DNA from: Mycobacterium sp. Root265
Lineage (GTDB): Bacteria; Actinomycetota; Actinomycetes; Mycobacteriales; Mycobacteriaceae
Length of the DNA: 64,000 nt
Reading direction: 5' to 3'
Assembly (NCBI RefSeq): GCF_001428895.1
Contig: NZ_LMJA01000012.1
Span: forward strand, 187,313-251,312
This document shows, one piece after another, positions 26,796 to 64,000 of this stretch. A program made the translations under genes and the position numbers. Numbering within the stretch: position 1 is the first letter of the stretch; the number at the start of each line of letters is the position of its first letter. A model generated the notes under the pieces. That model saw only the letters and a program-made list of their open reading frames with translations, made no database searches and was not told the origin of the DNA.

Positions 26796-26809
<14 letters not shown>
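25880..26809 (-). CDS. Small-conductance mechanosensitive channel (MscS family)
   Basis: With ATG 26809 the protein has 309 residues. Three TM helices lie near residues 28-50 ([19 protein letters not shown]), 85-108 ([18 protein letters not shown]) and 112-135, the last being the glycine/alanine-rich pore helix ([32 protein letters not shown]). The beta-domain begins with [10 protein letters not shown] and contains [29 protein letters not shown], the MscS hallmark. It protects against hypo-osmotic shock. The start overlaps the prfB stop by 14 bases. Position corresponds to Rv3104c. Confidence 0.93.
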
Positions 26810-27914
<1,105 letters not shown>

Positions 27915-39227: not shown

Positions 39228-42197
39228 CTAGCCGACGGCAACGGGCTCGTTCTCGGACGGTGCCGGACGGTTGCGCGGCCTGCGCCGCCCCGACGGCCAC
39301 CAGTTGTACTTGCCCACCAGCACCGCCAGCGCGGGCACCGTCAGGGTGCGCACCAGCAGGGTGTCGATCAGCAGACCGACACCGATGATGAAGCCGCCCT
39401 GCACCATCGAGCTGATGCTGCTGAAGCACATGGCGAGCATGGGCGCGGCGAAGATCATGCCGGCCGAGGTGATGACGCTGCCGGTGGCGCGGACGGTCTT
39501 GATCACTCCCGAGTTGATGCCGTGCGGGGATTCGTCGCGTATCCGGGAGATCAGCAGCATGTTGTAATCCGCGCCGACGGCCACCAGCACGATGAACGCC
39601 AGCCCCGGTGTGCTCGCCGCGATGGGCTGATCGAGGATCATCTGGAACACCAGCACGCCGATCCCCAGCGCGGACAGGCACGAAAGAATCACGGTGGCAA
39701 CCAGATACAGCGGGGCGACGATCGCGCGCAGCAGCAGCACCAGGATCAGGAACACCACCGCGACCGTCATCACCACGATGAACAGCAGATCCTGGTCGTA
39801 GTAGTCGCGCAGCTCGCTGTAGTACGGGGTCATCCCCGACATCGAGATGGAGGCATCGGCGAGCACCGTGTTGACCTGTGCGCCCTGAGCGGTGGCCAGG
39901 ATGGTCTTCACCTGATCCATCGCCCCGGTGTCATACGGGTCCAGGGTGGACTCGACCAGGTAGCGCGCCGAATGCCCGTCCGCGGACACGAACACCTCGA
40001 CGACGTCCTGGAAGTTCTCGTTGTCCAGGATCTCCGGCGTCACGAAGAACCCGGCGGTGCCCGGGTCGGTGGCGTTGCGTTTCATCGACAGCAGGAAGTC
40101 CGACGCGTCCTCCAGGCCGTTGCCGAGCTCACCGGTCTGCTCGTCGAGAGTCTTGACGCCGTCGGCGAGCTGCCTGCTGCCCTCGGCCAGAGCCGCGGCG
40201 CCCTGGTCGATCTTGGCGATCTGCTGCTGCAGCCCACCGGATTTCGAAGAGCCCAGCTGGGACAGCACCTTGCCGGCCGCATCCATGGCGGGCTGCACCT
40301 TGTCGAGCACCTCGACGACCCGCTGCCAGCGGTCGCGGTCGGACGCGCAGGCCGGGTCCATGTCGCAGTTCGGGTTGTTCTGCAGCGTCCGCACCACGAA
40401 CCGGGTGAATTCCAGCGATTCCTTGAAGCTGTCCGCGTCCTGCACCACCGGCGCGTCGCCGGGCATCTTGGGTAGCAGGTCGGAGTTGGTGAGCTGGGTG
40501 CGCACGTCGGCCATCGTCTTCTTCAGCCCGTCGAACACCGAGGTGGCCTGGGTCAGCTGGCCGCGCACGGTGGCCAGGCTCTCGGCGAGTTTGTCCGCAC
40601 CCCCGGTCAATTGCGCACGGGCATCGGTGCTTTCGGTGATCTTCGAGGACGCCTCGGCGAGTTTGTCGCCGATCACGCCGGCCTGATAGCTCAGGGTGGC
40701 CTGCTCCAGCGGTTCCCCGGTGGGACGGGTGACACCGCGCACCGACTCGATATCGGGCAGCTGGCTGACCCGCTGGGCCATCTGCTCCATATCGGCCAGC
40801 GCCTCGGGTGTCCGCAGATCGTGCGGTGACTGGATGAAGATGTACTGCGGGGCGGTGATGCTGGCCGGGAAGTGCTCCTCGATCGCGGCCATCCCGACGT
40901 TGCTCTCCGCGGACGGCGGCAGCGCGGTGCGCGCGTCATAGCTGGTGTCCATCGCCAGCACGCACAGCGCCAGCGGCACCAGGATCAGCATGCTGCACAC
41001 CAGGTGCGCCATCGGTTTGCGCACGATGCGGATCGCGGACCGCCGCCAGAACTGTTTGGTGAGTTCGCGTCGGGGTTTGGCCCATCCGCGCCGGCCGCAC
41101 AGCACCAGGAACGCGGGCAGCAACGTGACCGAGGCGAAGAACGCCACCGCGATCGAGACGGCCAGCGCGGGCCCGGCGGTGGAGAACACCTTCAGCGTGG
41201 TGAACCCCATGCCCAGGAAGGTGACCGCGACGGTCGCCGCCGAGGCGGCGATCACCTTGCCGATCGCGGTGACCGCCCGGGCCACCGCATCGTCGGGCGT
41301 CATCCCGGCCCGCAGATATTCGTGGTAGCGACTGATCAGGAAGACGGCGTAGTCCACCCCGGCGCCGATCATCATCGCCGACATGAACACCAGGGTCTGT
41401 TGCGAGATCGCCAGCCCCATCTCGGCGAGCCCGGCCACGATCTGCGCCGCGGCCACCTGCGAGATCGAGATCGTCAGCAGCGGCAGCAGCATCGTGACGA
41501 TGTTGCGATACACCACCAGCAGGATGACCAGCACCACGGCCACGGTGACGGTTTCGATCAACCGTAGGTCCCGCAGCCCGATCGCCTCGCGCTCGGCGAC
41601 GGTCGCCGTCAGCCCGGTCATGTGCAGCGTCAGGTCGGAGCCCGCGACCGCGTCCTCGACGGTCGTCACCACCCGCTGATAGGCCTCGGTGGACTCCGGT
41701 GACCCCAACTCCCCCACAATGCCGACCGGGACGAACCAGGCTCTGTTGTCCTTGCTCTGCATCACATCGCGCAGCGGCGGCTGGGTGATGAAGTCCTGCA
41801 CCATCACCACATCGCGGACGTTGCCGTGTAACTCGTTCACCAGCCTGCGGTAGACGTCCTCGTCGGCGTCGGTGAGTCCGCCGTCGTTGGTGAGCACCAC
41901 CAGGGCGATGTTCTGGATGCCCGGCTCACCGAAGGCGGCGGTCATCTGTTTGGTCGCCACCATCACCGCGGAGTCGCTGGGCAGCATCTCCTGATCGCGG
42001 TCACTCGCGAGCTGGATCAACGGCGGCAGCGTCGAGGCGAGCACACTGACGAGCACCAACCAGCCCGCGATCACCAGCCACGGTCGCCGCACCACGACGC
42101 GGGCGAGCCGCTCGAAGACACCGTTGACCGTCAGCTTCTTCCCGGCCTCGTCGTTGTCCGGCGACTCGGGGCGGTTGCGGGACAGGCTCAGCTTCAC
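39228..42197 (-). CDS. MmpL-family RND transporter coupled to the NRPS
   Basis: The 989-residue RND protein has TM1 at about residues 40-60, then [23 protein letters not shown] in the first TM block and [20 protein letters not shown] in the second, each with the Asp-Tyr pair of the proton path. The second periplasmic domain is long and helical (about residues 500-720, [29 protein letters not shown] and onward) and carries a cysteine pair (NCDMDPAC), as in MmpL proteins that export lipids and glycopeptidolipids. GTG 42197 overlaps the NRPS stop by 4 bases, so its translation depends on the NRPS. It most likely exports or helps assemble the NRPS product. Confidence 0.92.
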
Positions 42198-45100
42198 GGC
42201 GCCTCACGGTCGAGCAGGTGCCGCAGCTGCGGACCGTACAGTTCGAGCGCGTCGGCGCCCAGCATGTCCTGGTGGGTGCAGTCCACCCGGTGCGTGCTGA
42301 TCGCGCCGCTCACGTGCGGCGCCCAGCGGCGCGCGAGGTAGCCGGCGCGGTCGTCGTCATCGCGTTCGGCGGAGAACACGATCAGTTCGCCCTGGAACAC
42401 GTCGGCCATGTGTTCACGGTAGAGGCCGATGTTGGTGTCGACGTTGCGCACCATCTGATCGAGCAACGCGGTGGCGTCCAGGCCGTCCTGGGTGCCGAGC
42501 AGCTCGTCGACCTGACGACGATCCACCGCGGGGTTGGCCTTGTCGCTCAGCGTCGGTTCGGCGTCGAGCAGGATCAGCCGCGCGACGGTGCCGCCCCGGC
42601 GCTGTACCTCCACGGCGATGGCGTGCGCGAGCACACCGCCGTAGGACCAGCCGAGCAGCTGGACGGGTTGCTCGCCTTCGATCCGGTCGGCGTACCGGGC
42701 GGCCATCTCCCGCAGCGACGCCGGTGCGTCCTCGGCGACCTGCTGGATGCCGACGATCGGGTTGTCCAGGACGCCGGCGAGCACCTGGTAGTGCCAGCTG
42801 ACACCGCTGACGGCGTGCGGGACGAACACCGGGGTCCCGTTGCCGTGCTGCAGCACCTGCACGGCGGCGATCTCGTGGCCTGCGCCGCTGCCGCTGTCGA
42901 GCTGGATGGCCAGCGCCGCGACGGTCGGCGCCGCGAAGATGGCGGACACCGAAAGATCGCTGCCCAGTTCCTGATTGACCGCGGCGACCAAACGCATCGC
43001 GGCGATGCTGTCCCCACCCAGGTCGAAGAACGAATCGTCGGCGCGGACCCCTTCGACACCGAGCACCCGGGCGAACACAGCCGCCAGCGCCTGCTCGGTA
43101 GCGGTGTCGGGGGTGCGGGATTCGCCGGCCCGGTATTCCGGGGACGGCAGCGCGCGGGCGTCCAACTTGCCATTGACATTGACCGGCAACGCCGGTACGT
43201 CCACGACCGCGGCGGGCACCATGTAGCCGGGCAGCAGATCGGTCAGTGCCGCGCGGACCGCCAGCGGGTCGGCCGTACCGGTGATGTAGCCGACCAGCCT
43301 GCGGTCGCCGGGCCGGTCCTCACGCACGATCACCGCCGCCTGCTCGACACCCACCTGTGCCGCCAGAGCCGTACGCACATCGCCGAGTTCGATGCGGAAC
43401 CCGCGGATCTTGACCTGCTCGTCGGCACGGCCGAGGTGCTCGAGCTGGCCGTCGGCACCCCAGCGCGCCAGATCACCGGTGCGGTACATCCGCTGCCCGG
43501 GCGCACCGAACGGGCACGGCACGAAGTGGGTGCCGGTCAGCGCGGGCCGGTTTCCGTAGCCGACGGCGACACCCGTTCCGGCCACGTACAACTCACCGAT
43601 GACCCCGACGGGCACCGGCCGCAGGAACGCGTCGAGCACGAAGGTCGCCGCGCCCGGCACGGGGACACCGATCGGCATCGGACCGCCCGGCGTCAGCGGG
43701 TCGCTGACCGAGGCGTACACGGTGCCTTCGGTCGGGCCGTAGATGTTGACCATGGTGCGACCGTCGGCGCTCCATCGGTCGACGATGCCGGCCTGGCAGG
43801 CCTCACCGCCCACCAGCAGGGTCACCGATTCCAGGCCCTCGGGGGCGAGCAGCGCGGCCGCCGACGGGGTCTGGCCCAGCGCGGTGACCTGTTCGGCGAT
43901 CAACAGGGCGTGGAGGTCCTCCGGTGTCGCGGTGACGGATTCGGGCACCACCACCAGGCGTCCGCCGTGCAGGAGCGCCGCCCACATCTCGCCCACCGAG
44001 AAGTCGAACGCGAAGGAGTGGCACAGCGCCCACACCTCGCCGGCGCGGCCCAGGACCGGGGTGGAGAACTGCCCGGTCACGTTGCGGTGGCTGACGAGAA
44101 CACCTTTGGGGACGCCTGTGGTACCCGAGGTGTAGATGACGTAGGCGATGTCATCCGGTGACGGCCCCGGCGGCGCCGTGGCGGGCTGCATGCCCAGACG
44201 TGGGTCGGCCGGGTCGATCACCGGCAGCTCCCCGAAGCGGGTCGCCTGCTCGCGGCCCGTCACCACGGCGACGGGCACGGTGTCGGTGAGCATGAACGTC
44301 AGGCGTTCGGCGGGCATGGCCGGGTCGATCGGCAGGTAGGCCGCCCCTGTCTTGAGCACGGCCAGGATGGCGACGATCGCGTCGGTGCACCGCGGGAACA
44401 TCATCGCAACGAATTGGCCTGGGCCGGCGCCGTGTTCGGCCAGCAGATGCGCCATCCGGTTCGCGGATTCGTCGAGTTCACGGTAGGTCGTCGAGCTACC
44501 GTTGAACCGGACGGCCACCGCGTCCGGGGTGCGCGCGGCCTGCGCGGCGAACAGTTCCGGGATGGACGCGGCGGGTGCCGGTGCGGCCAGGACCGGCCGG
44601 TGCGCGAACGCGTCGAGCCGGGCATGTTCGGCCTCGTCGAGCAGATCGACGGTGGCCAGCGCCCGGGTGGGGTGGGCGATCATCTCGGCCAGCAACCGCT
44701 CGAACCGTGCGATGAACGTGTCGATCTCGGCCGGGGTGAAGATGTCGGTGTCGAACTCCACCCGCAGGCCCAGCTCGTCACCCGGGGACACCTGCACCGT
44801 CAGCGGGTAGTGATTCTCTTCGTGCGCCTCGAATTCGGTGATGGCCAGGGCGTCACCGAAACCGGCGGTGGCCGCACCGAGCGGGTAGTTCTCGTAGGCG
44901 AACATGGTGTCGAAGAGCTTGTCCTGCCCGGTGACCCGGTGGATCTCGGCGAGCGCCAGGTACTCGTGTTCCAGCGTGGCGTTGTGGGTGTGCTGCATCT
45001 GGTCCAGCAGATCGGCGGCGCAGGTGGTGGCGGTGACGGTGGCCCGCACCGGCACCGTGTTGATCATGAGACCGACCATGGCCTCGGCACCGGGCACGTC

Positions 45101-45925
45101 GGTCGGCCGCCCCGAGACCGGGGTCCCGAAGACGACGTCGTGCCGACCGGTCAGGTGCATCAGCAACTGAGCATAGGCGCTCTGCAGCACGACGTTCACC
45201 GTGGTCTGGTGCGCCCGGGCCAGCTCGCCGACGGCGCCGGTGGTCGCCGCGGACAGCTGAACGGAGCGAACGTCCCTGCGCCCCTGCGGGTCCTGGGCGG
45301 GGCCGAGCAGGGTCGGGGTGTCGAACCCGGCCAGCACCTCGCCCCAGGCGGCGCGGGCGGCGTCGCGGTCCCGCGTCGCCAGCCAGTTGACGAAGGTCCG
45401 GTACGGCACCGCGGCCGGGAGTCGCTGGCCGTGGTAGGCGGCGAAGATCTCGTGCAGCAGGATCGGCAGCGACCAGCCGTCCATCACGATGTGGTGGTTG
45501 GTCAGGATCAGCCGGTGCCGCTGGTCGCCGGTACGGATCAGCGCGACACGCACCGGCGTTTGGTGCGCGAGATCGCAGACCGCGACACGTTCGGCGGCCC
45601 GCAGCCGCCGGATCTCGGCGTCGTCCGCGATGTCGACGAGCTGCCAGGCGATCTCGGGGTCGGCGGGGACGATCTGCACGGGTTCATCCAGACCGGCTCT
45701 GAATCGGGCGGCCAGGTGCGGATGCCGCGCCATGACGGTCCGGACCGCGGCGCGCAGCCGCTCGGCGTCCAGGGTGCCGGTGATGGTCAGATCGAGTTGC
45801 ACCGCATACAGATCCGCATCGACGTCGGCGGCATCGGCATGGAACAGCAGGCCCTGCTGCAGCGGCGTCAGGGGCAGGACGTCGGCGATCCGGTGTTGCT
45901 CCTGGAGCTCGTCGATCTGGGCCTG
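42194..45925 (-). other. NRPS module 6: C (D-donor type)-A-T-TE
   Basis: C domain begins [14 protein letters not shown], with HHIVMDG at 45476-45496. A domain roughly 43150-44570; by-eye code D F G G L G I V Y K. Its A4 core reads FDFSVGEM, with Gly where every other module has Trp, so the pocket differs from the rest. Carrier serine at 43007-43009. The thioesterase (about 42200-42880) has the GWSYGG elbow, serine codon at 42644-42646, and a late VDCTHQDML histidine. It releases the peptide by hydrolysis or cyclisation. Confidence 0.8.
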
Positions 45926-48900
45926 GCTCAGGCGTGCGGGTGCGATATCCGACGGTGTCAGCCCACCTCCGCCGTTGCGGACATGCGCGCAGATGCCCTG
46001 CAGCGCCTCGAACCACAGCAGACTCAACCGGCCGACCTGCTCGTCGTCGAGGATCGAGGGGGCCCACGTCCAGTTGGCATGCAGCTGCGGCCCGTTCGCC
46101 CCGTCCACCGTGGCGGCGTTGAGTTCCACGGTGTGCATGAGCGGCATCGGGACCGCGGCACTGGCGGCCGTCGCGTCCGAGGAGCCGTCGGTGGCGATTT
46201 GCCACAGTTCGCCGGGCAGTTCCACCCCGCCGCCGAGGCGGCCCAGATAGTTGAAACCGATCGGCGGCTCCGCGCCGTCGAGGTCGACGTCGTCGTTGAG
46301 GTAGCGCAACAGTCCGTAGCTCAGCCCGTCGGGGTGTGCCCGCAGCTGTTCCTTGGCATTCTTGAGCAGCGCACCCAGACCGTCGTCACCGGAGACGACC
46401 CGCGACCAGGGCAGGTCACCGAGATCGAGGGACACCGGGTACTTGGTGGTGAACCAGCCGACGGTGCGGGACAGATCGATATCGGCTGCCAGTTCCTCGT
46501 GGCGGCCGTGTCCTTCGACGTCGATGGCGATGGTGGAGTCGCCGACGAATTCTGCTGCGGCCAGGGCGAACCCGAGCAGCAGGATGTCGTGGATGCCGGC
46601 GTGGAACGCGGCCGGAGCGTCACGCAGCAAGGTTTCCACGATGTCCGCGTCATCCAGCGACACCGACAGCCGGCCTGCGGTCTCATAGGTGTCGGCAGCG
46701 GTGGGCAGCGCGGCGGGGGCCGACGCGATCCGCCGCCAGGTGTCGGCGTCGGCGAGCACGCCGGCGCTGTGCGCGTGCTCGGCGAGCAACTCGGACCACC
46801 GGGCGAACGAGGTTCCGCTGACCGGCAGGGCGGCGGGCTGCCCGTGGTGGTGCCGACCCCAGGCAATGTTGAGGTCTTCCAGCAGGATTCGCCAGGACAC
46901 CCCGTCCACGGCGAGGTGGTGCACGATCAGCACCAGCTGGCCGGTGCGGCGCGCCCACAGCGCACGCAGCATCGCTCCGTGCTGCGGGTCGAGCTGCGAT
47001 CGTGCCGCGAGGACCGCGGCCTCGGACACCTCGTCCACCACGTGCAGGCAGTTCGCGGCGGGCACCGCGCCGGGCTCGGGGACCCGCAGGGCGTCGCCGT
47101 CGGCGCGCAGCCGCAGCATGGCGTGCCGGTCCAGCAGTGCCTGCAGCAGCACCACGACATCGGCCTCGGTGGCACTGGACGGGGCCTGCAGCACGACGGT
47201 CTGGTTGAACTCCTCGGTCGGTCCGTCGACGTCGCTCAGCCACCGCATGATCGGGGTCGCGACGACCGGGCCCAGACCGGGGTCGGTCACGGCCTCGCCG
47301 TCGGCGACGCCGACCACCAGCGCCAGCCGGGCCACCGTCTGCTCGACGAAGATGTCGCGCGGACGGCAGGTCAACCCGGCCGCCCGGGCGCGGGCCACCG
47401 CCTGCATCGACATGATGCTGTCGCCGCCCAACTCGAAGAACGAATCGTCGACCCCGACGCGGTCCAGTCCGAGGACTTCGGCGTAGATACCGGCCAGCAG
47501 TTCCTCGACGGCGGTGCCGGGCGCCCGGTACCGGTCGGGCTGGTCGTAGGTGGGCGCGGGCAGTGCCCGCTTGTCCAGTTTGCCGTTGGGTGTCAGCGGC
47601 AGTGTGTCGATGGCGATCACCGCGGCCGGCACCATGTACCCGGGCAGCTGGGTGGTCAGCGCGGCCCGCGCCGCACCGGGATCGGTGCAGCCGGTGACGT
47701 ATCCGACGAGCCGCTTGTCCCCCGGCCGGTCCTCGCGGGCGACGACGACCGCCTGGTCGACCCCGTCGACCGCGGCCAGCGCCGTCTGCACATCGCCGAG
47801 TTCGATTCGGAAACCCCGGATCTTGACCTGTTCGTCGGCCCGGCCCAGATACTGCAGCTGTCCGTCGGCACCCCAGCGCACCAGGTCACCGGTCCGGTAC
47901 ATCCGTTGTCCGGCACCGGCGAACGGGCATGCCACGAACCGGGTTCCGGTCAGCTCGCCCCGTTTGACGTAGCCGGCCGCGACACCGGTTCCGGCGATGT
48001 ACAACTCACCGACCACGCCGATCGGTACGGGGCGCAGCCATTCGTCGAGGACGAAGGACGCCGCGCCGGGCACCGGGGCGCCGATGGGCACCGCGCGCGT
48101 CGCCGTCTCAGATGCCGCCCGCAGCGGGGCGCTGACCGTCGCATAGATGGTGCCCTCGGTGGGCCCGTAGGCGTTGATCATCGTGACGCGGGGCGCCCAG
48201 CGATCGACGAGTTCGGCCGGGCAGGCCTCACCGGCCACCACCAGTGTCGTGACGTCCAGCCCGTCCGGTGACAACATCAGTGCCGCCGAGGGGGTTTGAG
48301 TCAGCACGGTGACGTGTTCGGCCACCAGCAGGGCGTGCAGATCCTCCGGGGAGCGGGCCACCCATTCGGGGACGATGACCAGCCGTCCGCCGCGCAGCAG
48401 CGCGCCGAAGATCTCCCACACCGACACGTCGAAGGCCAGCGAATGCCACTGGCTCCACACGCCCACCGGGGCCAGGCCGTCCCCGGCGGCGCCGAGCAGC
48501 CCGATGGCATTGCGGTGCGTGACGGCGACGCCCTTGGGCACACCGGTGGTGCCCGAGGTGTAGATCAGGTAGGCGATGTCCGCGGCCGACGGACCTGGCA
48601 GCGCCGTGGCGGGCTGCGCGAGCAAGGCGGGGTCGTCGAGGTCGAGCACGGTGATGTCCGGTCCGGCCAGATCCGCGGTGGCCAGCACCGCCACCGGAGT
48701 GGCATCGCCGAGCACGAAGTCGATCCGGGCAGCAGGCAGCGCCGGGTCGATCGGCAGATAGGCCGCACCGGTCTTGAGTACCGCGAGGATCGCGGTGATC
48801 GCCTCGGCCGAGCGGTGGAACAGCAGCGCGACCGTCCGGCCGGGGGCCGCACCGCGGTCGGACAGCTGATGCGCCAACCGATTCGACAGGGCATCGAGTT

Positions 48901-51900: not shown

Positions 51901-54900
51901 TGACCGGATCCATCGGCAGGTACGCGGCCCCCGATTTCAGCACGGCCAGGATAGCCACCACGGCCTCGGCGGAGCGCGGAACCAGCAGCGCTACCGTGCG
52001 GCCGGGTCCGGCACCGGCGGTCACCAGCCGTTGCGCCAACCGGTCGGAGGCATCGTCCAGTTCGGCGTAGGTGAGCGAGATGTCACCGCACACCACGGCC
52101 ACCCGATGCGGCGCCCGGGTGACCTGGCCGCGGAACCGGTCGGGGATCGTGGTGGCGGCCACCGACCGGCTCAGCGCCGCCCGGTTACCCCAGCGGTCCA
52201 GCGTGACCTGCTCTTCGGTGTCCGCGGCGGTGAGATCCGACAACGGTCGCGCGGGATCGGTCGTCATCGCGAGCAGCACCCGGGTGAATCGTTCGGTCAG
52301 CGCGGTGATGTCCTCGGCGCCGAACACCTCGGTGTCGTACTCGATGCGCAGCGTCAGATCCCGGCCGGGCTGGGCCTGCACGGTGAGGGGGTAATGGCTG
52401 GACTCCCGGGTGCTGACGTCGGTGACGCTCAGCTCGTGATCACCGGACAGTGCCGCGGTGTCCACCGGATAGTTCTCGTAGGCGAACATGGTGTCGAAGA
52501 GCTGGTCGTGCCCGGTGACCCGGTGAATGTCGTTGAGCGACAGGTGCTGCTGGTCGAGGGTGTCGTTGTACGCACCGTGCAGCTGCTCGAGCAGGTCGAC
52601 TGTGGAGGTGGCCGGGGTGATGCGCGCCCGCACCGGAAGCGTGTTGATGAACAGGCCGATCATGGATTGGACGCCGGGGACCTCGGCGGGCCTACCGGAC
52701 ACCGTGGTGCCGAAGGCGACATCACGACGGCCGGTGAGCCAGCACAGCACCTGCGCGTACCCAGCCTGCAGCACGGTGTTGACGGTGGTGTGCCGGGCCC
52801 GCGCCAAAGCGGCCACCGCGTCGGCAACTCCGTCGGCCAGGGTGACGGTGTCCACGCGGCGCGGCCCGGGGCGGGTCCGGTCCGCTGGACCCACCAGGGT
52901 GGGCTCGTCGAAGCCGGCGAAGAGTTCACCCCACACGGCACGCGCCGCATCGAGGTCACGGCCGGCCAGCCAGGTGAGGTAGCGGCGGTACGGCGTGGCA
53001 GCGGGCAGCCGGTGCCCGTGGTAGCCGGCGAAGATCTCCCCCAGCAGGATCGGCATGGACCAGCCGTCCAGCACGATGTGGTGATTGGTCAGCACGAACC
53101 GATGGCGTTCTGCCCCAAGCCGGATCAGCGTGGTGCGGAAGACGGTCTTCTCGGTGAGGTCGCAGACCGCGGCGCGCTCGGCCGCGCAGATCCGGTCGAC
53201 CTCGACCGGATCCGGGTCGGCGGCGAGATCCACCTGCCGCCAGGCCGCGGTGGGCTGGGCGGGGATGATCTGTATCGGCGGCGACGCGTGGAAGCGTGCG
53301 GCGAGGTGTGGGTGGCGCTTGACCACGCCGCGCACCGCGGCCCGCAGCCGCTCCGCGTCGAGCGGGCCGACCAGTTCGATGGCGACCTGCCCGGCGTACA
53401 GATCGTCGGTGCCCTCGGCGGTGGTGGCGTGGAACAACAGACCCTGCTGGACCGGTGTCAGCGGCAGCATGTCGGCGATCCGGTAGCGGTGTTGCAGTTC
53501 GTCGATCTGCTGCTGGCTCAGCTGCGCGGGGAAGATATCGGACGGGGTGAGGCCTCCCCCACCGGCCCGCACGTGCGCACAGATCCCGGCCAGGGCCTCG
53601 AACCACAGCCGGCTCAGCCGGGACACCTGCGCCTCGTCGAGTGCCGAAGGCGCCCAGGTCCATCCGGCGTGCAGCCGGGGACCGTCGGCCCCGTCCACCG
53701 TCGCGGCGTTGAGTTCCAGGGTGTGCATGAGCGGCATGGCGATGGCCGAGGCCGACTCGGTGAGCGACCAGTCCTCGCTCGGCCGCCACAGCTCGGAGAG
53801 ATCCGACGTGCCCGTCTGCCGCCCCAGATAGTTGAAGCCGATGGTCGGCTCGGGCGCCGTCAGGTGGACCTCATCGTTGAGATAGCGCAGCAGGCCGTAG
53901 CTCAGCGCGTCGGGCAGGGCCCGCAACTGTTCCTTGGCGTCCTTGATCACCGCGCCGAGTGCGGTGTCACCGGAGATGATCTGCGCCCAGGACAGCTCCC
54001 CAGCGCTCAGTTCGAGGGCCACCGGGGACTTCGTGGTGAACCAGCCGACGGTGCGGGACAGATCGAGATCGGCGGCGAGTTCCTCGTGGCGGCCGTGGCC
54101 CTCGACGTCGATGGCGATCGACGTCTGGGCGGTGAACTCCGCCGCGGCCAGGGCGAACCCGATCAGCAGGATGTCCTGGATCCCGGTATGGAACGCTGCC
54201 GGTGCGGCGGTCAGCAGGATGTCGGTGGTCTCGGTGTCCAGCTGTGCCGACATCCGGCCGGCGGTGGCGAAGGTGTCGGTGCCCGAACGTAGCGCGGGGA
54301 GCACCGAGGGTGTCTGCGCGACCCGCTGCCATGTCTCGGTGTGCGCGACGATCTCCGGCCGGTGCGCATGGTCGGTGAGCACCGCCGCCCACCGCTGGAT
54401 CGAGGTGCCGCCGGCGGGCAGCTGTACCGGCTCCCCGGTCTGCAGCTGGGACCAGGCGATATTGATGTCTTCCAGCAGGATTCGCCAGGACGCGGCATCG
54501 ACCGCCAGGTGATGGATCATCACCGCCAGCTGTCCGGTGCTGGGTACCCACAGTGCGCGCAGCATCGCACCGGTGGCGGGGTCGAGTCCCGACCGGGCTT
54601 CGGCGAGTACCTCGTCGGTGAGGGCGCCGGCGTTGTGCAGGCAGTCGCGCGCGTCCACCGTTCCCGGTGGGTCCACCTGCAGGCCGGTGAGCTCACTGAC
54701 CCGCAGCCGCAGCGCGCCGTGCCGGTCCAGCAGGGTCTGCAGCACCGCCAGCACATCGGCTTCGATGGCGCCCGCCGGCGCCTGCACCAGCATCGTCTGG
54801 TTGAACTCGGCAGTCGGTCCGTCAACCTCGTTGAGCCACCGCATGATCGGGGTCGCCGGCATCGGCCCGAAGCCCTCGTCGGCGACGGTATCGGTCTGGG

Positions 54901-57900
54901 CCGTCTCGACCACCCGGGCCAGCCGGGCCACCGTCTGTTCGACGAAGATGTCCCGGGTCCGGCAGGTCAGTCCGGCGGCCCGGGCCCGCGTCACGACCTG
55001 CATCGAGGAGATGCTGTCGCCGCCGAGATCGAAGAACGACTCGTCGACGCCCACCCGGTCGGCGCCGAGCACGTCGGCGTAGATGCCGGCCAGGACTTCC
55101 TCGACCGTGTTGCTCGGCGCCGCGTACTCGCCGCTGGTGTACTCGGGGGCCGGCAACGCACGCACATCGAGCTTGCCGTTGGGGGTGAGTGGCAGTTCGG
55201 CAACGGTGATCACCGCCGCCGGGATCATGTACCCCGGAAGGGTGTCGGCGAGCCCGGCGCGCACCGCCGTCGGGTCGGCTGTGCCGGTGATGTAACCGAC
55301 CAGGCGTTTGTCCCCTGGGCGGTCCTCACGGGCGATCACCACGGCCTGGTCTACCCCGGTCCGGCCCGCCAAAGCGGTTTGTACATCGCCCAATTCGATC
55401 CGGTAGCCGCGAATCTTCACCTGCTCATCGGCACGACCGAGATAGTCCAGCTGTCCGTCGGCGCGCCACCGCACCAGATCCCCGGTGCGGTACATCCGCG
55501 CGCCGGCACCGGCGAACGGGCACGCCACGAACCGCGCGGCACTCAGCCCGCCACGGTTCACATAGCCGGCCGCAACGCCGCCGCCGGCAATGTACAGCTC
55601 ACCGATCACGCCGGCCGGGACCGGCCGCAGCCAGGCGTCGAGCACGAACAGCGCGGCGCCGCCGGCCGGGGATCCGATCGGCACGACCGCCGTCGGCTCC
55701 GGTGTCAGTGGCGCGCTGATGGATGCGTAGATGGTGCCCTCGGTGGGACCGTAGGCGTTGATCACCGTTCTCGGCGCCCAGCGGTCGACCAGTTCGGCCG
55801 GGCAGGCCTCGCCGGCCACCACCAGTGTCACCCCGTCGAGACCGTCCGGCGCGAGAGCACCTGCCGCCGAGGGAGTCTGGCTCAGGACGGTCACCTGCTC
55901 GTCGAGGAGCAGTGTGCGCAGGTCCTCGGGTGCGCGTGCCACCGATTCGGGGATCACCACCAGCCGTCCGCCCTGCAGCAGTGCACCGAAGATCTCCCAG
56001 ACCGAGACGTCGAAGGCCAGCGAGTGCCACTGCGACCAGACTCCGGTGCGGGGCAGCCCGGAATCCGGTGCGGTCAGCAGCGCTGTCACGTTGCGGTGGC
56101 TGACGGCAACGCCTTTGGGCACTCCGGTGGTGCCCGAGGTGTAGATCAGGTACGCCAGATCGTCGGCGGCAGGTGCCGGCAGCGCGGTGTTGGGGTGATC
56201 GGCGACGGCGGCGTCGTGCACGTCGATGATGACGCCGTCATAGTCGGTCAGTTGTGCGCTGAGTGCGGCGGTGGTGACGACGGCCACCGGTGCGGCATCG
56301 CCCAGTACCACCGTGATCCGGGCCGGCGGCAGCGCCGGGTCGAGCGGCAGATAGGCGGCACCGGATTTGAGCACCGCCAGGATCGTGATGATCGCCTCGG
56401 CGGAACGTGGCATCAGTAGGGCCACCGTCCGCCCGGGCCGGGCCCCTTGTGCGGTGAGCAGATTCGCCATCCGGTTGGCGGCGTCGTCCAGTTCGGCGTA
56501 GGTCAGCGACCGGCCGTCGGTCCATCCCCCGTCGCTCTGCTCGCCCTGGCAACGCAGCGCCACCGCATCCGGGTCGCGGGCGACCGCCGCGGTGAACAGT
56601 TCCGGTATCGACGCATCCGAGACGGCCCGGGTGAACACGTCGCGGTGGCTCAGCGCGTCGAGGCGTTCCCGTTCGGCGTCGTCGAGCAGGTCCACCGCCG
56701 ACAGCGCCAGGGCGGGCGCGGCGGTGGTGGCGGCCAGCACCCGCTCAAGGCGGTCGATCAGGGTCTCGATGGTGGCGGCATCGAACACATCCGTGCGGTA
56801 TTCGACGGTGCCGCCGATCCCGGCCGGCTCGCCGTCCTCGGTCCACAACTCGCCCAGGGAGAAGGTGAGGTCCATGCGCGCGGTCTTGGTGTCCACCGGC
56901 AGCGGTTCGATCTGCAGCCCGCCCAGCGCCAGACCCGAGGTGGTCTGCCGGTGACCGGGCAGGTTCTGCCAGGCGAGCAGCACCTGCACCAGCGGATGAT
57001 GGCTCAGGTTGCGGGTCGGGTTGAGCCGCTCCACGAGCACGTCGAAGGACACGTCCTGGTTCTCGTAGGCGGCCAGGCTGCGCTGCTGCACCTGCGCCAG
57101 CAGGTCGGCGAAGGTGGGGTCGCCGTCGATCTCGACCCGCAGCACCAGGGTGTTGACGAAGAATCCGACCAGGTCGTCGAGCGCGGCGTCGCGGCGGCCC
57201 GCGACCGGAACACCGACTGCCACATCGGAGGTCGCGCCGATCTTGCTCAGCAGCAGGGTGAGCGCCGTCTGCACCACCATGAAGCTGGTCGCGTTGTGTT
57301 CGCGGGCGATCCGGGCGATGCGGCGCTGCAACTCGGCGGGCCAGGCGACCGCGACGACGGCTCCGCGCTGCCCGGCGACCAGGGGGTAGGGACGGTCGGT
57401 GGGCAGCTGCAGCCGCTCGGGCAGGCCGGCCAGCGCGCTCTCCCAGTAGGCCAGTTGCCCGGCGATGGCGCTGTCCGCGGTGTCCAGTTCGCCGAATTGT
57501 GCTCGCTGCCAGAGGGTGTAGTCCACATACTGCACCGGTAGCGGCACCCAGTCCGGGGCCTGCCCGGCGCTTCGGCTTGCGTAGGCCACGCTGAGGTCCC
57601 GGGCCAGCGGTGTCATCGACCAGCCGTCGGCGGCGATGTGGTGTACCGCTGCCACCAGTACGTGCACATCGGGTTGCACCCGGAAGAGACCGGCCCGCAA
57701 GGGGATCTCGGCGGACAGGTCGAAGGCGTAGCGCGCGGCGGCGCCGACCGCCTCATCCAGCCGGCCTGCCGGCCAGTCGGTGGCATCGGTGAACTGCCAA
57801 CCACATTCGGCCCGGTCCGCCGGCAGCACCACCTGCTGCGGTATCCCGTCGGGTGCCACCAGCAGGGTGCGCAGGCTCTCGTGCCGGGCGATGACGTCGT

Positions 57901-60900
57901 TCAGCGCGGCGTGCAGCGCATCGATGTCGAGGTCGCCGCGCAGCCGCAGTGTCGTCGCCATGTTGTACACCGCCGACGGGCCCTGCAACTGCTCGAGGAA
58001 CCACAACCTGTTCTGCGCGAACGACAGCGGGATGACCGCGGGACGGTCGCCGGCCACCAGCGGCTCCAGCCGTCCAGCGTCCTCAACGATGCGCGGTGCC
58101 AGCTCCGCGACGGTGGGCGCCTCGAAGATGGTGCGCACCGCGAGGTTGGCGTGCAGGCTGCTGTTGATGGCGGCGATCAGCCGCATGGCAGTGATGCTGT
58201 CACCGCCGAGGTCGAAGAAGGAATCGTCGGAACCGACCCGCTCCACGCCGAGAAGCTGGGCATAGATACCGGCCAGGATCTCTTCGACGGCGCCGGTCGG
58301 GGCGCGGTACACCCCGGCGGCGTAATCGGGCGCCGGCAGCGCCCGGGTGTCGAGTTTGCCGTTGGCGGTGAGCGGCAGCGCCGCCAGCACCACGATGGCG
58401 GCGGGAACCATGTACGCGGGCAGCCGGGTACTGAGCGCGGCACGCACATCCACCGGGTCCACGGTGCCGGTGAGGTAACCGACCAGGCGCTTGTCCCCGG
58501 GACGGTCCTCACGGGCGATGACGACAGCCTGGTCCACCCCGGCCACGTCCGCCAAAGCGGTCTGCACATCGCCCAATTCGATGCGGTAGCCGCGAATCTT
58601 CACCTGCTCATCGGCACGGCCCAGATAATCCAGCTGACCGTCGGCACGCCAGCGCACCAGATCCCCGGTGCGATACATCCGCCCGCCTACGCCGGCGAAC
58701 GGGCACGCCACGAAGTGCGAGCCGGTCAGCGATCCGCGGCCCAGATATCCTGCGCCCAGTCCGGCACCGGCCACATACAGTTCGCCGACCACGCCGACCG
58801 GCACCGGGCGCAGCCAGGCGTCCAGCACGAACAGCGCGGCCTGCGAGACCGGTGATCCGATCGGCACATTGCCCGGCTCGGCGCCCAGCGGGGCGCTGAT
58901 CGTGACGCACATGGTGGTCTCGGTGGGGCCGTAGGCGTTCAGCATGGTCCGCCCGCCGGAGGTCCACTTCTGCACCACCTCCGGTGAGCAGGCCTCGCCA
59001 ACGGCGACCAGCACGGTCGATTCCAGCCCTTCGGTCGGTAGCACCGCTGCCGCCGAGGGGGTTTGGGTGAGGACGGTGACGCCCTCGGCGACGATCACCG
59101 CGTGCAGTTCCTCGACATCCGGGACCACCACGACGCGGCCGCCGCGCAGCAGTGGCGCGAAGATCTCCCAGACGGACACGTCGAAGGCCAGCGAGTGCGC
59201 GTGGCTCCAAACCGAACCCTCGGGCAGCCCGCGGTGCGGTGCCCCGAGCAGCTGGCTGACATTGGCGTGGGTCAGCCCGACGCCCTTCGGCACGCCGGTG
59301 GTACCCGAGGTGTAGATCAGGTAGGCGAGGTTGTCGGCGGCCGGCACCGGCAGCGGCGTGCTGACACCGCCGTCGGGCATGGCGTCGATGTCGATCACCG
59401 CGCCGCCGAAACCTGCCAGCAGGCCACCGAATTCGCGGTCGGACGCCGCGGCGACCGGTGTGGCGTCGGACAGCACGAACGCGATGCGTTCGGCGGGCCA
59501 GGCCGGGTCGATCGGCAGGTAGGCCGCCCCGGTCTTGAGAATGGCCAGGATCGCGGAGATCGCCTCGGCCGAACGCGTCAGCAGCAGCGCCACGGTCTGC
59601 CCCGGTCCCGCACCGTGCCGGATCAGCAGGTGCGCCAACCGATTCGACGCGTCGTCGAGGGCTGCGTAGGTGAGCGACCGGTCGCCGCTGACCGCCACCG
59701 CGTCGGGGGTGCGCGCGACGTGTCGGCCGAACAGTTCCGGTATCGAGATTCCGGTGGGGGCGCCGTCGAGCGCGGCCATGTTGCCGAATGCGCGCAGCCG
59801 TGACATCTCGTCGTCATCGAGGACATTCAGCGCCGCCAGCGTCCGCGCGGGATCGGCGGTCATCTCCGTCAGCACCCGGCCCAGGCGATCGACGAGGGCG
59901 GTCACGGTTGCCGCGTCGAACACGTCGGTGCGGAACTCGACGATGCCGCCGATGCCGGCGGGGTCTCCGGTTTCCGTCCAGCGTTCGGCGAGGGAGAACG
60001 CCAGATCCATGCGCGCGGTGTGGGTGTCGACCGGCAGCGGGGTGATCTCCAGGTCGCCGAGCACCAGCCCGGCAGCGGTGTCGGCGTGCTGCCAGGGCAG
60101 GTTCTGCCAGCCCAGCATGACCTGGATCAACGGGTGATGGGTGAGGCTGCGGGCGGGATTGAGCCGTTCGACCAGTACCTCGAACGGCACGTCCTGATGT
60201 TCGTAGGCGGCCAGGCTGCTGGTGCGCACCCGCTCCACCAGATCGGCGACCGACGGATTGCCTGCGAAATCGACACGGAGCACCAGGGTGTTGACGAAGA
60301 AGCCGACGAGATCGTCGAGGGCGGTGTCGGAGCGTCCCGCGATCGGGAATCCCACGGCCACATCGGAGCTGGCGCTCAGCTTTGACAGCAGCACCGCCAG
60401 GGCGGCCTGCACGACCATGAAGCTGGTGGCGTTGTGCGCGGTGGCGACCCGGGCGATCTGCTGCTGCAACTCGGCGGGCCAGTCGACATCGACGGTGGCG
60501 CCGCGGTGGTCCGCCACCGCCGGGTACGGGCGGTCCGTAGGCAGATCGAGGTGCTCCGGTATCCCGGTCAGGGCCTCTTCCCAGTACCCCAGCTGCTCGC
60601 TGATCGGGCTGTCCGGGTCGCCGAGCTCACCCAGTTCGCCGCGCTGCCACAGGGTGTAATCGACGTACTGCACCGACAGCGGTTCCCACTGTGGCGGTTT
60701 CCCGGCGGACCGGCTCGCGTAGGCGGTGCCCAGGTCGGTGACCAAGGGCCGCAGCGACCATCCGTCGGCCGCGATGTGGTGTACCACGGCCACCAGCAGG
60801 TGCTCCTCCGCAGCGACACGGAAAAGACCGGCGCGCAGCGGTATCTCGGACGCCAGGTCGAAGGCGTACTCGGCCACCGCACTCACGGCCTCGTCCAGCC

Positions 60901-63900
60901 GGTCGGCCGTCCAGCCGGTGGCATCGACGGTGTCCCAGCCGATCTCGATGGCGTCGGCCGGGAGAATCACCTGTTGCGGGATGCCCTGCGCCGAGGCGAA
61001 GATGGTGCGCAGGCTCTCGTGCCGGGCCACCACGTCGGCCATCGCGGCGCGCAGCGCGTCAATGTCGAGCCGGCCGCGCAGCCGCAGCGCGACGGCAATG
61101 TTGTAGATGGGTGACGGGCCCTGTAGCTGGTCGACGATCCACAACCGGTTCTGCGCGAAGGACAGCGGGATCGCCGGCGGTCGCTCGGCCGGCACCAGGG
61201 GCGCCTTACGGGAACCGCCGAGATCGACCCGCAGTGCCAGCTGGGCGACGGTGGGCGCCTCGAAGACCGTGCGGACCGGCAGGTCGGCGCTCAGCGCGGT
61301 GTTGACGGCCGTGATGAGCCGCATGGTGGACAGCGAGTCGCCACCCAGGTCGAAGAACGAGTCGTCGACGCCGACCCGCTCCACACCGAGGGTTTCGGCG
61401 AAGATGTCGGCGAGGGTCCGCTCGACCGCCCCGGCGGGCGCCCGGTAGCGGGTGGTCTCGTGGTAATCCGGCGCCGGCAGCGCCCGGGTGTCAAGCTTGC
61501 CGTTCACCGTGACCGGCATCTCCGGCACGCCGATCACCGTGGACGGGACCATGTAGCCCGGCAGCCGTTCGGCCAGGGCGGCTCGTGCGGTGAGCGGGTC
61601 CGCGGAACCGGTGATGTAACCCACCAGCCGTTTGTCGCCGGGGGTGTCTTCGCGGGCGATGACGACGGCTTGTTCCACGCCATCCACCGCGGCCAGCGCG
61701 GATCGCACCTCGCCGAGTTCGATGCGGTAGCCGCGGACCTTCACCTGCTCATCGGCGCGGCCGAAGTAGTCGAGCTGGCCGTCGGCGCGCCAGGAGACCA
61801 GGTCGCCGGTGCGATACATCCGGGTGCCCGGTTCGCCGAACGGGCAGGCCATGAAACGGGTTGCGGTCAAGGAGGTCCGGCGCCAGTACCCGGCTCCCAC
61901 GCCGCGGCCCGCCAGATACAGCTCACCGACCACCCCGGGCGGCACCGGCCGCAGCCATTCGTCGAGCACGAAGAACGCGGCGCCCGCGGTCGGGGAACCG
62001 ATCGGCGGTGCACCGGACCCGGCGGCCAGCGGGGTGCTCTTGCAGGCCCACATGGTGGTCTCGGTCGGGCCGTAGACGTTGACCATGACGCGCCCGGGCG
62101 CCCATCGGTCCACGAGTTCCGGCGCGCAGGCCTCCGCGCCGATCACCAGTGCCGCATCCACGCCCTCGGTGGGCAGTACCGCTGCCGCCGAGGGGGTCTG
62201 GGTCAGCACGGTGACCTGCTCGCTGATCAGCAGGGCGTGGAAGTCCGGCGCGGAACGGGCAATGTCGTCGGGCACCACGACCAGGCGTCCGCCGTGCAGC
62301 AGCGCCGCCCAGATCTCCCACACCGAGAAATCGAAGGCATAGGAGTGGAACTGGGTCCAGACCTGTCCCGGTGAGAGTTCGATACCGATGTCGAGTCCGT
62401 CGAACAGCTGGACCACATTGCCGTGGTTGACGGCAACACCTTTGGGAACGCCGGTGGTGCCGGAGGTGTAGATGATGTGCGCGATGTCCTCGGGGGTGGG
62501 TCCGTCGGGCACGGGGGTCGCCGTCACGGCGCGGGTGGGGTCGGCGCAGTCGTCGCATTCGATGACCTGGACTCCGGCAACCCGGCCGGCCAGCGCCGCG
62601 GTGGTCATGACGGCGACCGGGCCAGCGTCGTCGAGCATGAAATCGATGCGGGCCGGCGGCAGGGCGGGATCCATCGGCAGGTAGGCCGCACCGGATTTGA
62701 GCACCGCCAGGATCGCCACGATCGCCTCGGCGGACTTCGGGAACAACAGCGCCACACACCGTCCCGGACCCGCGCGCCGGGCGATGAGCAGTTGTGCCAG
62801 GCGGTTGGCGGCCTGGTCCAGATCGGTGTAGGTCAGCGATCGTCCACCGTGCACCACCGCGACGGCATCCGGTGTGCGGGCGACCTGCGCGCTGAATCTG
62901 GCCGGTACGGTCGACCCGGCGTAGGGCACGCCCAGGACCGTGCGGTTGCCCCACTGATCGAGCCGGGCCCGTTCGCCGTCGTCGAGCAGATCCATCGAGG
63001 ACAGCCGGCGCCGCGGGTCGGTGGTGAGTGCCGAGAGCAGCCGCTCCAACCGGCCGACCAGGGCGTGCACGCCTGCGGCATCGAAGATGTCGGTGCGGTA
63101 TTCGACAGTGACGTCCAGACCGTCGGGGTCGCCGTCGGTGGTCCAGCGCTCGCCCAGCGAGAACGCCAGGTCCATGCGGGCGGTCTCGGTATCCACCTGC
63201 AGCGGGGTCACCTGAAGGTCCCCGAGCGCCAGTCCGGCGGCATCGCCGGGCTGCCAGGCGAAGTTCTGCCAGCCCAGCAGCACCTGGACCAGCGGGTGCC
63301 GGGTCAGGCTGCGCGCCGGGTTCAGCCGCTCGACGAGCACTTCGAAGGGCACATCCTGATGCTCATAGGCGGCCAGGCTGCGCCCGCGCACCTGTGCCAG
63401 CAGGTCGGCGAAGGTGGGGTCGCCCGCCACGTCGACGCGCAGCACCAGCGTATTGACGAAGAAGCCGACCAATTCGTCGAGCGCGGTATCGCGCCGCCCG
63501 GCGATCGGAAAGCCCACCGCCACATCGGTTGTCGCGCTGATCTCGGCCAGCAGCGCGGCGAACGCCGCCTGGATGACCATGAAGCTGGTGGCGTTGTGTT
63601 CGCGGGCCACCCGGCGCACCTGTTGCTGCAGGTCGACCGGCCACTGCAGGGCCACCCGGGCACCGTGATGATCGGCCACCGGCGGGTACGGGCGGTCGGT
63701 GGGAAGCTGCAGCTGCTCGGGCATCCCGGCCAGGGCGGTCTCCCAGTAGGCCAGCTGCGCGGCGATCGGGCTCTGATCGTCGTCGAACTCGCCCAGTTGG
63801 GTGCGCTGCCAGAGCGTGTAGTCGACGTACTGGACGGGCAGCGGTGCCCATCCCGGTGCCTGGCCCACATATCTGCTGGCGTAGGCCAATCCGAGATCGC

Positions 63901-64000
63901 GCACCAGCGGAGTGACCGACCAGCCGTCGGCGGCGATGTGGTGTACGACGGCCACCAGGATGTGTTCGCCGTCGCTGAGGCGGAAGAGTGAGGCATGGAA
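42194..64000 (-). CDS. Multimodular non-ribosomal peptide synthetase, N-terminal part beyond the window
   Basis: The frame enters from the right edge without a start and runs more than 7,260 codons to TGA 42194. Six modules are visible in order of synthesis: (C)-A-T, C-A-T, C-A-T-E, C-A-T, C-A-T-E, C-A-T-TE. C domains 1, 2, 3 and 5 have the HHIAADG motif. Those after E domains (4 and 6) begin [14 protein letters not shown], with HHIVxDG, as expected of C domains that accept a D-residue donor. All six T domains have GGDS with the phosphopantetheine serine. The C-terminal thioesterase has GWSYGG. The product is at least a hexapeptide with two D residues. No MbtH-like, phosphopantetheinyl transferase or tailoring gene is in view. 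Confidence 0.95.
45950..50450 (-). other. NRPS module 5: C-A-T-E
   Basis: C domain with HHIAADG at 50003-50023. A domain roughly 47550-49000, by-eye code D V W T V A A I Y K, identical to module 3 except for one conservative position, so both modules probably load the same residue. Carrier serine at 47417-47419. The epimerase has HHLAVDG (46901-46921), EGHGRHE and RTVGWFT and looks intact. Confidence 0.8.
50480..53515 (-). other. NRPS module 4: C (D-donor type)-A-T
   Basis: The C domain begins [14 protein letters not shown], as in C domains that follow an epimerase, with HHIVLDG at 53063-53083. A domain roughly 50720-52160, by-eye code D F W C M G L I W K, similar in pattern to module 1. Carrier serine at 50576-50578. 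Confidence 0.8.
53540..58070 (-). other. NRPS module 3: C-A-T-E
   Basis: C domain with HHIAADG at 57623-57643. A domain roughly 55150-56620, by-eye code D V W S V A A I Y K. This shares seven of ten positions with the phenylalanine-type code DAWTVAAVCK if S/T at position 4 is counted as equivalent, so an aromatic residue is possible. Carrier serine at 55013-55015. The epimerase has EGHGRHE, RTVGWFT and FNYLG, but its active-site motif reads HHLAVDA rather than HHxxxDG. Confidence 0.78.
58090..61210 (-). other. NRPS module 2: C-A-T
   Basis: C domain from [18 protein letters not shown] with HHIAADG at 60761-60781. A domain roughly 58340-59755. By-eye specificity code D V W T V V A M C K. Carrier serine at 58196-58198 (GGDSITAM). 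No epimerase follows, so an L residue is expected. Confidence 0.8.
61240..64000 (-). other. NRPS module 1 (first visible): C (cut)-A-T
   Basis: The condensation domain is cut by the window edge but shows HHIAADG at 63923-63943. The adenylation domain spans roughly 61480-62920, with AFDFSVWE, a YGPTETTMW core and NGKLD. Aligned by eye to GrsA, the ten specificity residues read D F W T V G V M W K. The carrier serine is at 61334-61336. The code has no close standard match I trust. It shares D, F, W, G and K with threonine codes, which is weak. Confidence 0.8.

Follow-up and report, generated by a model that had tools for sequence, protein, structure and literature searches.

An eight-module nonribosomal peptide synthetase of Mycobacterium sp. 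Root265 and its predicted place among the lipooctapeptide/L5P-type synthetases of mycobacteria

Introduction

Acylated, partly D-configured octapeptide lipids are a known kind of mycobacterial product as described in PMC11978893, where the second loci are said to vary across species and a lipooctapeptide of Mycobacterium avium is cited (Riviere 1996). The lipid L5P is given as acyl-D-Phe-NMeVal-Ile-Phe-Ala-OMe (PMC8471605, Table 2; PMC8103206) with an acyl group of C18-C20 (PMC8103206), and mps1 of M. avium subsp. paratuberculosis is described with five (or three) modules (PMC8471605). The peptide of GL8P from M. abscessus was determined by nuclear magnetic resonance as Thr-Ala-Phe-Ile-Tyr-Leu-Thr-Thr (PMC11978893). 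Here we analyze a nonribosomal peptide synthetase (NRPS) gene of Mycobacterium sp. Root265, together with the adjoining mbtH and mmpL genes. Most of the NRPS gene lies in a stretch of 64,000 nucleotides of contig NZ_LMJA01000012.1 (the window; C12:187313-251312 in a 6.67-Mb genome of 30 contigs), and it continues on the same contig.

We propose, with good though not complete confidence, that this mbtH - NRPS - mmpL unit makes an N-acylated octapeptide of the same type as the M. avium lipooctapeptide and L5P and also exports it. The first-pass annotation of the window had described an NRPS of at least six modules with an unknown product; the gene turns out to be larger, with eight modules and one N-methylation, and its product class can be named from the layout and from calibrated adenylation codes.

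Results

Domain order of the synthetase

The NRPS gene is a single open frame of 10,309 codons on the minus strand, with its stop at window position 42194 and its start 9.1 kb beyond the right window edge (L002:9136, or 73123 on the window scale). Domains were called with hidden Markov models (HMMs) built from the window gene's own repeats, all HMMs thus deriving from that gene itself, and with Pfam Condensation matches. With condensation (C), adenylation (A), thiolation (T), epimerase (E), methyltransferase (MT) and thioesterase (TE) domains, the full layout is Cstart-A-T-E / C-A-MT-T / C-A-T / C-A-T / C-A-T-E / C-A-T / C-A-T-E / C-A-T-TE, of which starter C-A-T-E, C-A-MT-T and the beginning of C3 lie outside the window. 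The order proposed earlier for the window, (C)-A-T / C-A-T / C-A-T-E / C-A-T / C-A-T-E / C-A-T-TE, was confirmed by the domain HMMs, C3 being partly outside. The E domains behind the earlier prediction of alternating D residues are indeed there, but in modules 1, 5 and 7 of the eight only. D residues are expected at positions 1, 5 and 7, and an N-methyl group at residue 2, where the methyltransferase sits inside A2.

The motifs are well kept. HHxxxD is present in every C and E domain, GGxS in every T domain and YRTGD in every A core, while the methyltransferase carries VLEIGVGSG and the TE domain GWSYG. The E5 motif reads HHLAVDA, with the usual final G replaced, and the A10 pattern matched six of the eight A domains, A2 and A3 being one letter off with GK kept. 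A frame of this length without an internal stop and with a tested motif in every domain excludes chance.

Extending the contig to the right, as the first-pass annotation had suggested, brought the first C domain into view. Its best solved matches are 7c1h (1.6e-38) and related entries and, from another protein, the CDA synthetase entry 4jn3 (5.6e-34), all of them starter C domains, and this indicates a lipopeptide. The other C domains fall into two sequence types of four and three members, which we assigned from motifs and position to LCL and DCL. The three carry PLTPxQQGLL and are exactly those directly behind an E domain, which agrees with acceptance of a D residue. NCBIfam gave no lipopeptide-specific family for two pieces of the NRPS, among the 25 best of 110 and 105 matches.

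Calibrated adenylation codes

Textbook code tables fit the NRPS pockets here poorly, and hence the codes were calibrated within the mycobacterial group. The calibrator was a cluster of Mycobacteroides sp. CBMA 271 with eight A domains in genes of six and two modules and E domains at 1, 3, 6 and 8, which is also the published layout of the M. abscessus GL8P system. In this cluster all three Thr positions carry DFWSVGMVH, and the other codes are DVWSVAAVY for Ala, DVWTAVAMC for Phe, DFWTVGVMW for Ile, DAESLAAIC for Tyr and DFWTLGAVY for Leu. The Ala code recurs in a glycopeptidolipid (GPL)-like M. colombiense gene where Ala is to be expected from the GPL structure, and DFWTVAAVC stands where Phe is to be expected. 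Applied to the eight-module M. colombiense gene, this key gives Phe, N-Me-X, Ile, Phe-like, Ala, ?, Ala, Phe. Its modules 1-5, including E1 and the module-2 methyltransferase, agree with L5P, which ties the layout to a known lipid.

In the window gene A1, A3, A4, A5 and A7 have codes identical to or at most two letters from those calibrated for Ile, Phe, Ala or Leu, and A2, A6 and A8 do not. The earlier remark that the codes are not standard thus stands against textbook codes but not against those of the family, to which five of the eight are identical or within two letters. A3 has the Ile code exactly, A4 is one letter from Phe, and A5 and A7 are one and two letters from Ala. A1 (DFWTVGAIY) differs from the Leu code in two letters and has the same code as A8 of genome G241, which groups with Leu-code A8 domains (support 92; the A-domain tree was made with FastTree, with local support only). 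A2 reads DAFLIGAIW and, like A1, differs in code from its M. colombiense counterpart; it is one letter from DAFLVGAIW, which is found in module 2 of a gene pair of G304 (see below) and in A2 of G194. A6 (DFWCMGLIW) falls in the Ile-type group of the tree, and none of the eight modules carries the Thr code DFWSVGMVHK.

These codes were compared across a table of 27 genes, a non-random sample taken, among the matches listed, for their long open frames or their high identity with the N-methyltransferase stretch, without A4 of M. frederiksbergense and A2 of G213, where the genes are split. Codes 1, 2, 6 and 8 vary most, and the module-3 Ile code is identical in 27/27. The A8 code DFGGLGIVY is common only to the window gene, M. 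frederiksbergense and G194. It has Gly at two pocket positions where A8 of six sister genes of the same branch has Trp and Thr, and G268 (DFGTLGAVY) has the first Gly change only. Outside this group of three, the rows of the A-domain tree nearest to A8 belong to the Ala and the Leu type and lie about equally far from it. The predicted product is acyl-D-Leu (less likely D-Phe)-N-Me-Leu (or N-Me-Val)-Ile-Phe-D-Ala-Ile/Val-like-D-Ala-X, with X an unusual residue. Taken as Leu, N-Me-Leu, Ile, Phe, Ala, Ile and Ala, its first seven residues add up to a mass of 755.49 by hand calculation; with a C20:0 cap the free acid would come to about 1067.80 plus the residue mass of X, and a methyl ester to 14.02 more.

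Distribution of the layout

The starter C domain matched 39 loci, of which 38 are titled mycobacteria or Mycobacteriaceae and one is a Pseudonocardiales metagenome contig; the best match is in M. frederiksbergense (86%). Of 298 sampled genomes of the genus, 129 have a match (E<=1e-30) to the module-2 N-methyltransferase stretch. Among the matches listed, 27 genomes have this match in one frame of 10,249-10,530 residues, 24 of them, M. colombiense included, with the exact domain order of the window gene and three with the methyltransferase in the last module. We annotated 35 loci, all chosen through related hits, and 24 full-length and three split genes have the same order, the TE match coming in two pieces (counted as one) in four of the 24. 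The split genes, over two or three open reading frames (ORFs), are those of M. frederiksbergense, G194 and G213. The first (L044-L046, C1:559477-590419) consists of two overlapping ORFs split in the A4 region. Among the relatives seen, M. frederiksbergense and G194 stand nearest to the window gene.

When a tree was built from the non-A domains of these 24 genes, a branch with a local support of 100 separated the seven that have an adjoining MmpL of the window gene's own type from the other 17, M. colombiense among them. With the three split genes counted in, the window gene's own side has ten members, and in all ten an MmpL of this type (over 1,400 bits) adjoins the NRPS. In M. manitobense, one of the 17, the NRPS is followed by two MmpL genes of a different type and then by a second starter-C NRPS with its own MbtH (L055, C14:44334-58596).

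The two sides also differ in GPL-type reductases. A search with the reductase that terminates the GPL-like synthetase of M. colombiense gave matches in 27/27 genomes with the lipooctapeptide layout, and many of these are stand-alone reductases some 1,150-1,250 residues long. Counted as NRPS-borne only in frames above 2,000 residues, a cut that we set, the reductase was present in 16/17 genomes of the M. colombiense side (not G101) and in 1/10 of the own side (G156). The Fisher p value is 2e-5, to be read with the two clades as one contrast and not as 27. The Root265 genome has no NRPS-sized reductase frame, its two reductase matches lying in ORFs of 1158 and 1186 residues. This contrast agrees with a dedicated exporter in genomes that lack the GPL machinery.

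Features and neighboring genes

The features inside the window are collected in Table 1. MbtH has 74 residues (PF03621, 100 bits), starts with GTG behind GGAGG and ends 24 nt before the start of the NRPS. The MmpL protein, whose best solved matches lie far ahead of MmpL3, scores 843 bits against TIGR00833, just below the cut-off of 875, and its identity is 94.5% in M. frederiksbergense and 70% in AZCC_0083.

Table 1. Features of the NRPS and mmpL genes inside the window, with positions on the window scale.
Feature	Position	Strand	Basis or remark
NRPS gene, 3' part	42194..64000	minus	one open frame, no internal stop
C3 (type following L residue), part inside window	63014..64000	minus	HHIAADG
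A3, DFWTVGVMWK, read Ile	61718..62890	minus	identical in 27/27 genes tabulated
T3 + C4	59849..61441	minus	HMM and motif
A4, DVWTVVAMCK, read Phe	58577..59725	minus	one letter from calibrated code
T4 + C5	56714..58303	minus	HMM and motif
A5, DVWSVAAIYK, read Ala	55394..56590	minus	one letter from calibrated code
T5 + epimerase E5, D at 5 expected	53528..55120	minus	motif HHLAVDA
C6 (type following E domain)	52238..53476	minus	sequence type, HMM and motif
A6, DFWCMGLIWK, Ile/Val-like	50957..52129	minus	groups with Ile-type A3/A6 domains
T6 + C7	49094..50683	minus	HMM and motif
A7, DVWTVAAIYK, Ala type	47801..48967	minus	two letters from calibrated code
T7 + epimerase E7, D at 7 expected	45938..47524	minus	HMM and motif
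C8 (type following E domain)	44654..45886	minus	sequence type, HMM and motif
A8, DFGGLGIVYK, substrate uncertain	43388..44545	minus	3/27 genes: window gene, M. frederiksbergense, G194
T8 + type I thioesterase, GWSYG	42209..43114	minus	best solved match is EntF TE
MmpL transporter	39228..42197	minus	4-nt overlap with 3' end of NRPS; best solved matches MmpL4 and MmpL5

To one side of the unit lies a gene for a peptide-chain release factor (window 26796-27914), to the other the nuo operon (L003). In M. frederiksbergense the neighbors are conserved over the part fetched, from window position 30983 to the nuo genes, and the flanks fetched around the AZCC_0083 locus (about 5 and 12 kb) gave no match to the neighbors of the window NRPS. 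A Pfam scan covered 38 flanking ORFs, not every ORF of the region and some of them without a match, and among these there was no methyltransferase and one glycosyltransferase, about 37 kb off beside an alpha-amylase gene. A further MMPL-family gene (window 5571-8414, minus strand) stands beside glycosyltransferase and alpha-amylase genes. Opposite the NRPS there are plus-strand open frames at window 44414-48271 (1285 residues) and 48296-54292 (1998 residues), which are probably mirror frames of G+C-rich coding DNA.

Related synthetases in other genomes

A second NRPS family (L084-L085, L088-L089, L092-L093, L098-L101) has frames of 10.2-10.4 thousand residues with the N-methyltransferase in the last module before TE. 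The genes of G171, G117 and G242 and the second copies in G224 and G284 have this position of the methyltransferase; their last 4,000-4,300 residues were covered, and they stand outside the code table. G224 and G284 hold both NRPS families. A3 and A6 of G268 (L090/L091) are near-identical (end branches of 0.003 and 0), which suggests recent copying of one A domain onto the other within the gene.

G304 carries MbtH with NRPS genes of five modules (methyltransferase in 2 and 5) and of four modules with TE at C1:5625687-5657881, minus strand (L118, L119). At each position the nine codes, and with them the two methyltransferases, agree with fortuitine, Val-MeLeu-Val-Val-MeLeu-Thr-Thr-Ala-Pro, and the pair may be a fortuitine gene cluster not yet assigned as such. 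We found no open-licence paper that names both 'fortuitine' and 'Mycobacterium fortuitum'. Among the matches listed, other genomes too have methyltransferase pairs, spaced by about 10.7 kb in frames some 6,500 residues long.

Discussion

From the order of domains and genes we infer the following route to the product. The starter C domain would join a long fatty acyl group to residue 1, and the eight modules would extend the chain in order, the E domains turning residues 1, 5 and 7 to D, the methyltransferase inside A2 methylating the nitrogen of residue 2, and MbtH supporting the A domains. The TE domain would then release the chain, probably in linear form because residues 1-7 are without a predicted side chain for ring closure, although a 3-hydroxy acyl group could still serve for this. 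MmpL proteins export GPL to the envelope, and the MmpL of the unit would likewise move the lipopeptide to the outer envelope.

Several observations weigh against this proposal or against parts of it. MbtH is directly upstream of the NRPS in all three split genes but in only 20 of the 24 full-length ones, the exceptions being M. manitobense, G176, G250 and G101, and no lipid-loading or terminal O-methyl gene was recognised among the 38 flanking ORFs scanned. Of 40 other genomes sampled, 7 also have relatives of the MmpL, at 41-60% identity, and the exporter is therefore not exclusive to the lipooctapeptide locus. The calibrating cluster comes from Mycobacteroides sp. CBMA 271 and not from M. 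abscessus, and its last gene ends in C-T by the HMMs, versus the TE named for GL8P. As for single residues, A1 is only three letters from the presumed GPL Phe code DFWTVAAVC and sits among Phe-type A1 domains; its code says Leu and its ancestry Phe, the A-domain tree leaves both, and we read D-Leu as likelier than D-Phe. The A2 pocket region is 66% identical both to the fortuitine-like N-Me-Leu domain of G304 and to A2 of M. colombiense, with N-Me-Leu as our first choice for residue 2 and N-Me-Val as the second. A8 is without a calibrated match, and a larger pocket that would fit a bulky residue is a guess.

Other explanations of the locus are possible in principle. The starter C domain, MbtH and MmpL are of the same class as those described for GPL and GL8P loci (PMC11978893), and GL8P likewise has eight residues, so that the product might be a glycosylated surface lipopeptide of GPL or GL8P type whose sugars are added by genes elsewhere in the genome. 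We consider this improbable, as the E domains stand at 1, 5 and 7 instead of 1, 3, 6 and 8, the code of Thr, which carries the sugar in GL8P, is missing from all eight modules, TE takes the place of the terminal reductase of GPL (the reductase matches of Root265 being the two short ORFs mentioned above), and the scanned flanks hold only the one distant glycosyltransferase, the whole genome not having been searched for such genes. The chance that the unit makes instead a secreted, perhaps cyclic, lipopeptide acting as an antibiotic or surfactant, and not an envelope lipid, is similarly slight. A TE domain can cyclise, and the best solved match is the TE of EntF, which has a cyclising role; a 3-hydroxy fatty acyl group, if taken by the starter C domain, could close a ring, and the branch-specific code of residue 8 would suit a variable antibiotic. 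However, residues 1-7 offer no predicted nucleophilic side chain, the gene that overlaps the NRPS encodes an MmpL4/5-like protein, and the characterised relatives L5P and GL8P, both acylated peptides of the cell envelope, have no ring in their published descriptions. That the NRPS is a relic no longer making a product is hardly credible: the layout is indeed broken up into two or three ORFs in M. frederiksbergense, G194 and G213, but in Root265 the frame is open over all its codons and the tested motifs are present in every module.

A further idea goes beyond this and is put forward tentatively, as we rate it clearly below even chances. In the own branch, where 9/10 genomes lack an NRPS-sized GPL-type reductase, the chief surface lipid of GPL-like kind would be the lipooctapeptide with its own MmpL. 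The M. frederiksbergense group would also have remodelled the module-8 pocket for a residue new to mycobacterial lipopeptides.

The analysis places an apparent orphan NRPS in a defined mycobacterial lipopeptide family, with a residue-by-residue prediction. It also reveals in many mycobacteria the scaffold of the lipooctapeptides, marked by E at 1, 5 and 7, an N-methyl residue at 2 and an Ile code at 3 that is constant in 27/27 genes. L5P serves as a diagnostic antigen (PMC8471605, PMC11978893), and thus species that possibly make look-alikes bear on the specificity of such tests.

The conclusion of the first-pass annotation that the product is not mycobactin, GPL or exochelin was borne out by the ketosynthase, reductase/TE and flanking-ORF scans. 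Mycobactin was rejected as there is no ketosynthase match near C12:229506-260435, salicylate genes not having been searched for; ketosynthase and C domains are found at another locus, C27:345-366 kb. Exochelin was rejected as ornithine hydroxylase and formyltransferase are absent among the flanking ORFs scanned, the search being confined to these. Classical GPL is rejected by the TE domain in place of a terminal reductase and by the lack of an NRPS-sized reductase frame in the Root265 genome, in which C-domain and reductase matches gave no classical GPL locus. GL8P is rejected since there is one gene with E at 1, 5 and 7, versus two with E at 1, 3, 6 and 8. In the open-licence literature we found neither the exact product of the window gene nor a paper on M. 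frederiksbergense with a lipopeptide.

Compared with the systems described so far, the window gene shares with classical GPL synthetases (Mps1/Mps2) the starter C domain, MbtH and MmpL-type transport, and the latter differ from it in the terminal reductase, the sugars and the smaller number of modules. The GL8P system of M. abscessus (MAB_4691c/MAB_4690c) is alike in the acyl octapeptide, the terminal TE and the MbtH and MmpL genes at the locus, and unlike in its two genes, one with six modules and one with two, its E domains at 1, 3, 6 and 8, its three Thr residues, its O-methyl-Tyr and its rhamnosylation (PMC11978893); the word N-methyl is absent from the main text of that paper. With L5P (and L3P) the predicted product has in common N-acylation, a D residue at 1, an N-methyl residue at 2, Ile at 3, Phe at 4 and Ala at 5, mps1 being compared through the described structure. 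Unlike mps1 the window gene has eight modules, and residues 1 and 2 are probably Leu and N-Me-Leu instead of Phe and N-Me-Val. With the lipooctapeptide of M. avium rough variants the predicted product shares the octapeptide length, and the domain order of the window gene recurs unchanged in M. colombiense, which belongs to the same complex. From the M. colombiense codes those of the window gene differ clearly at 1, 2, 6 and 8 and by one or two letters at 4, 5 and 7. Judged by layout and calibrated codes, the NRPS of Root265 would thus belong with the lipooctapeptide/L5P synthetases of mycobacteria.

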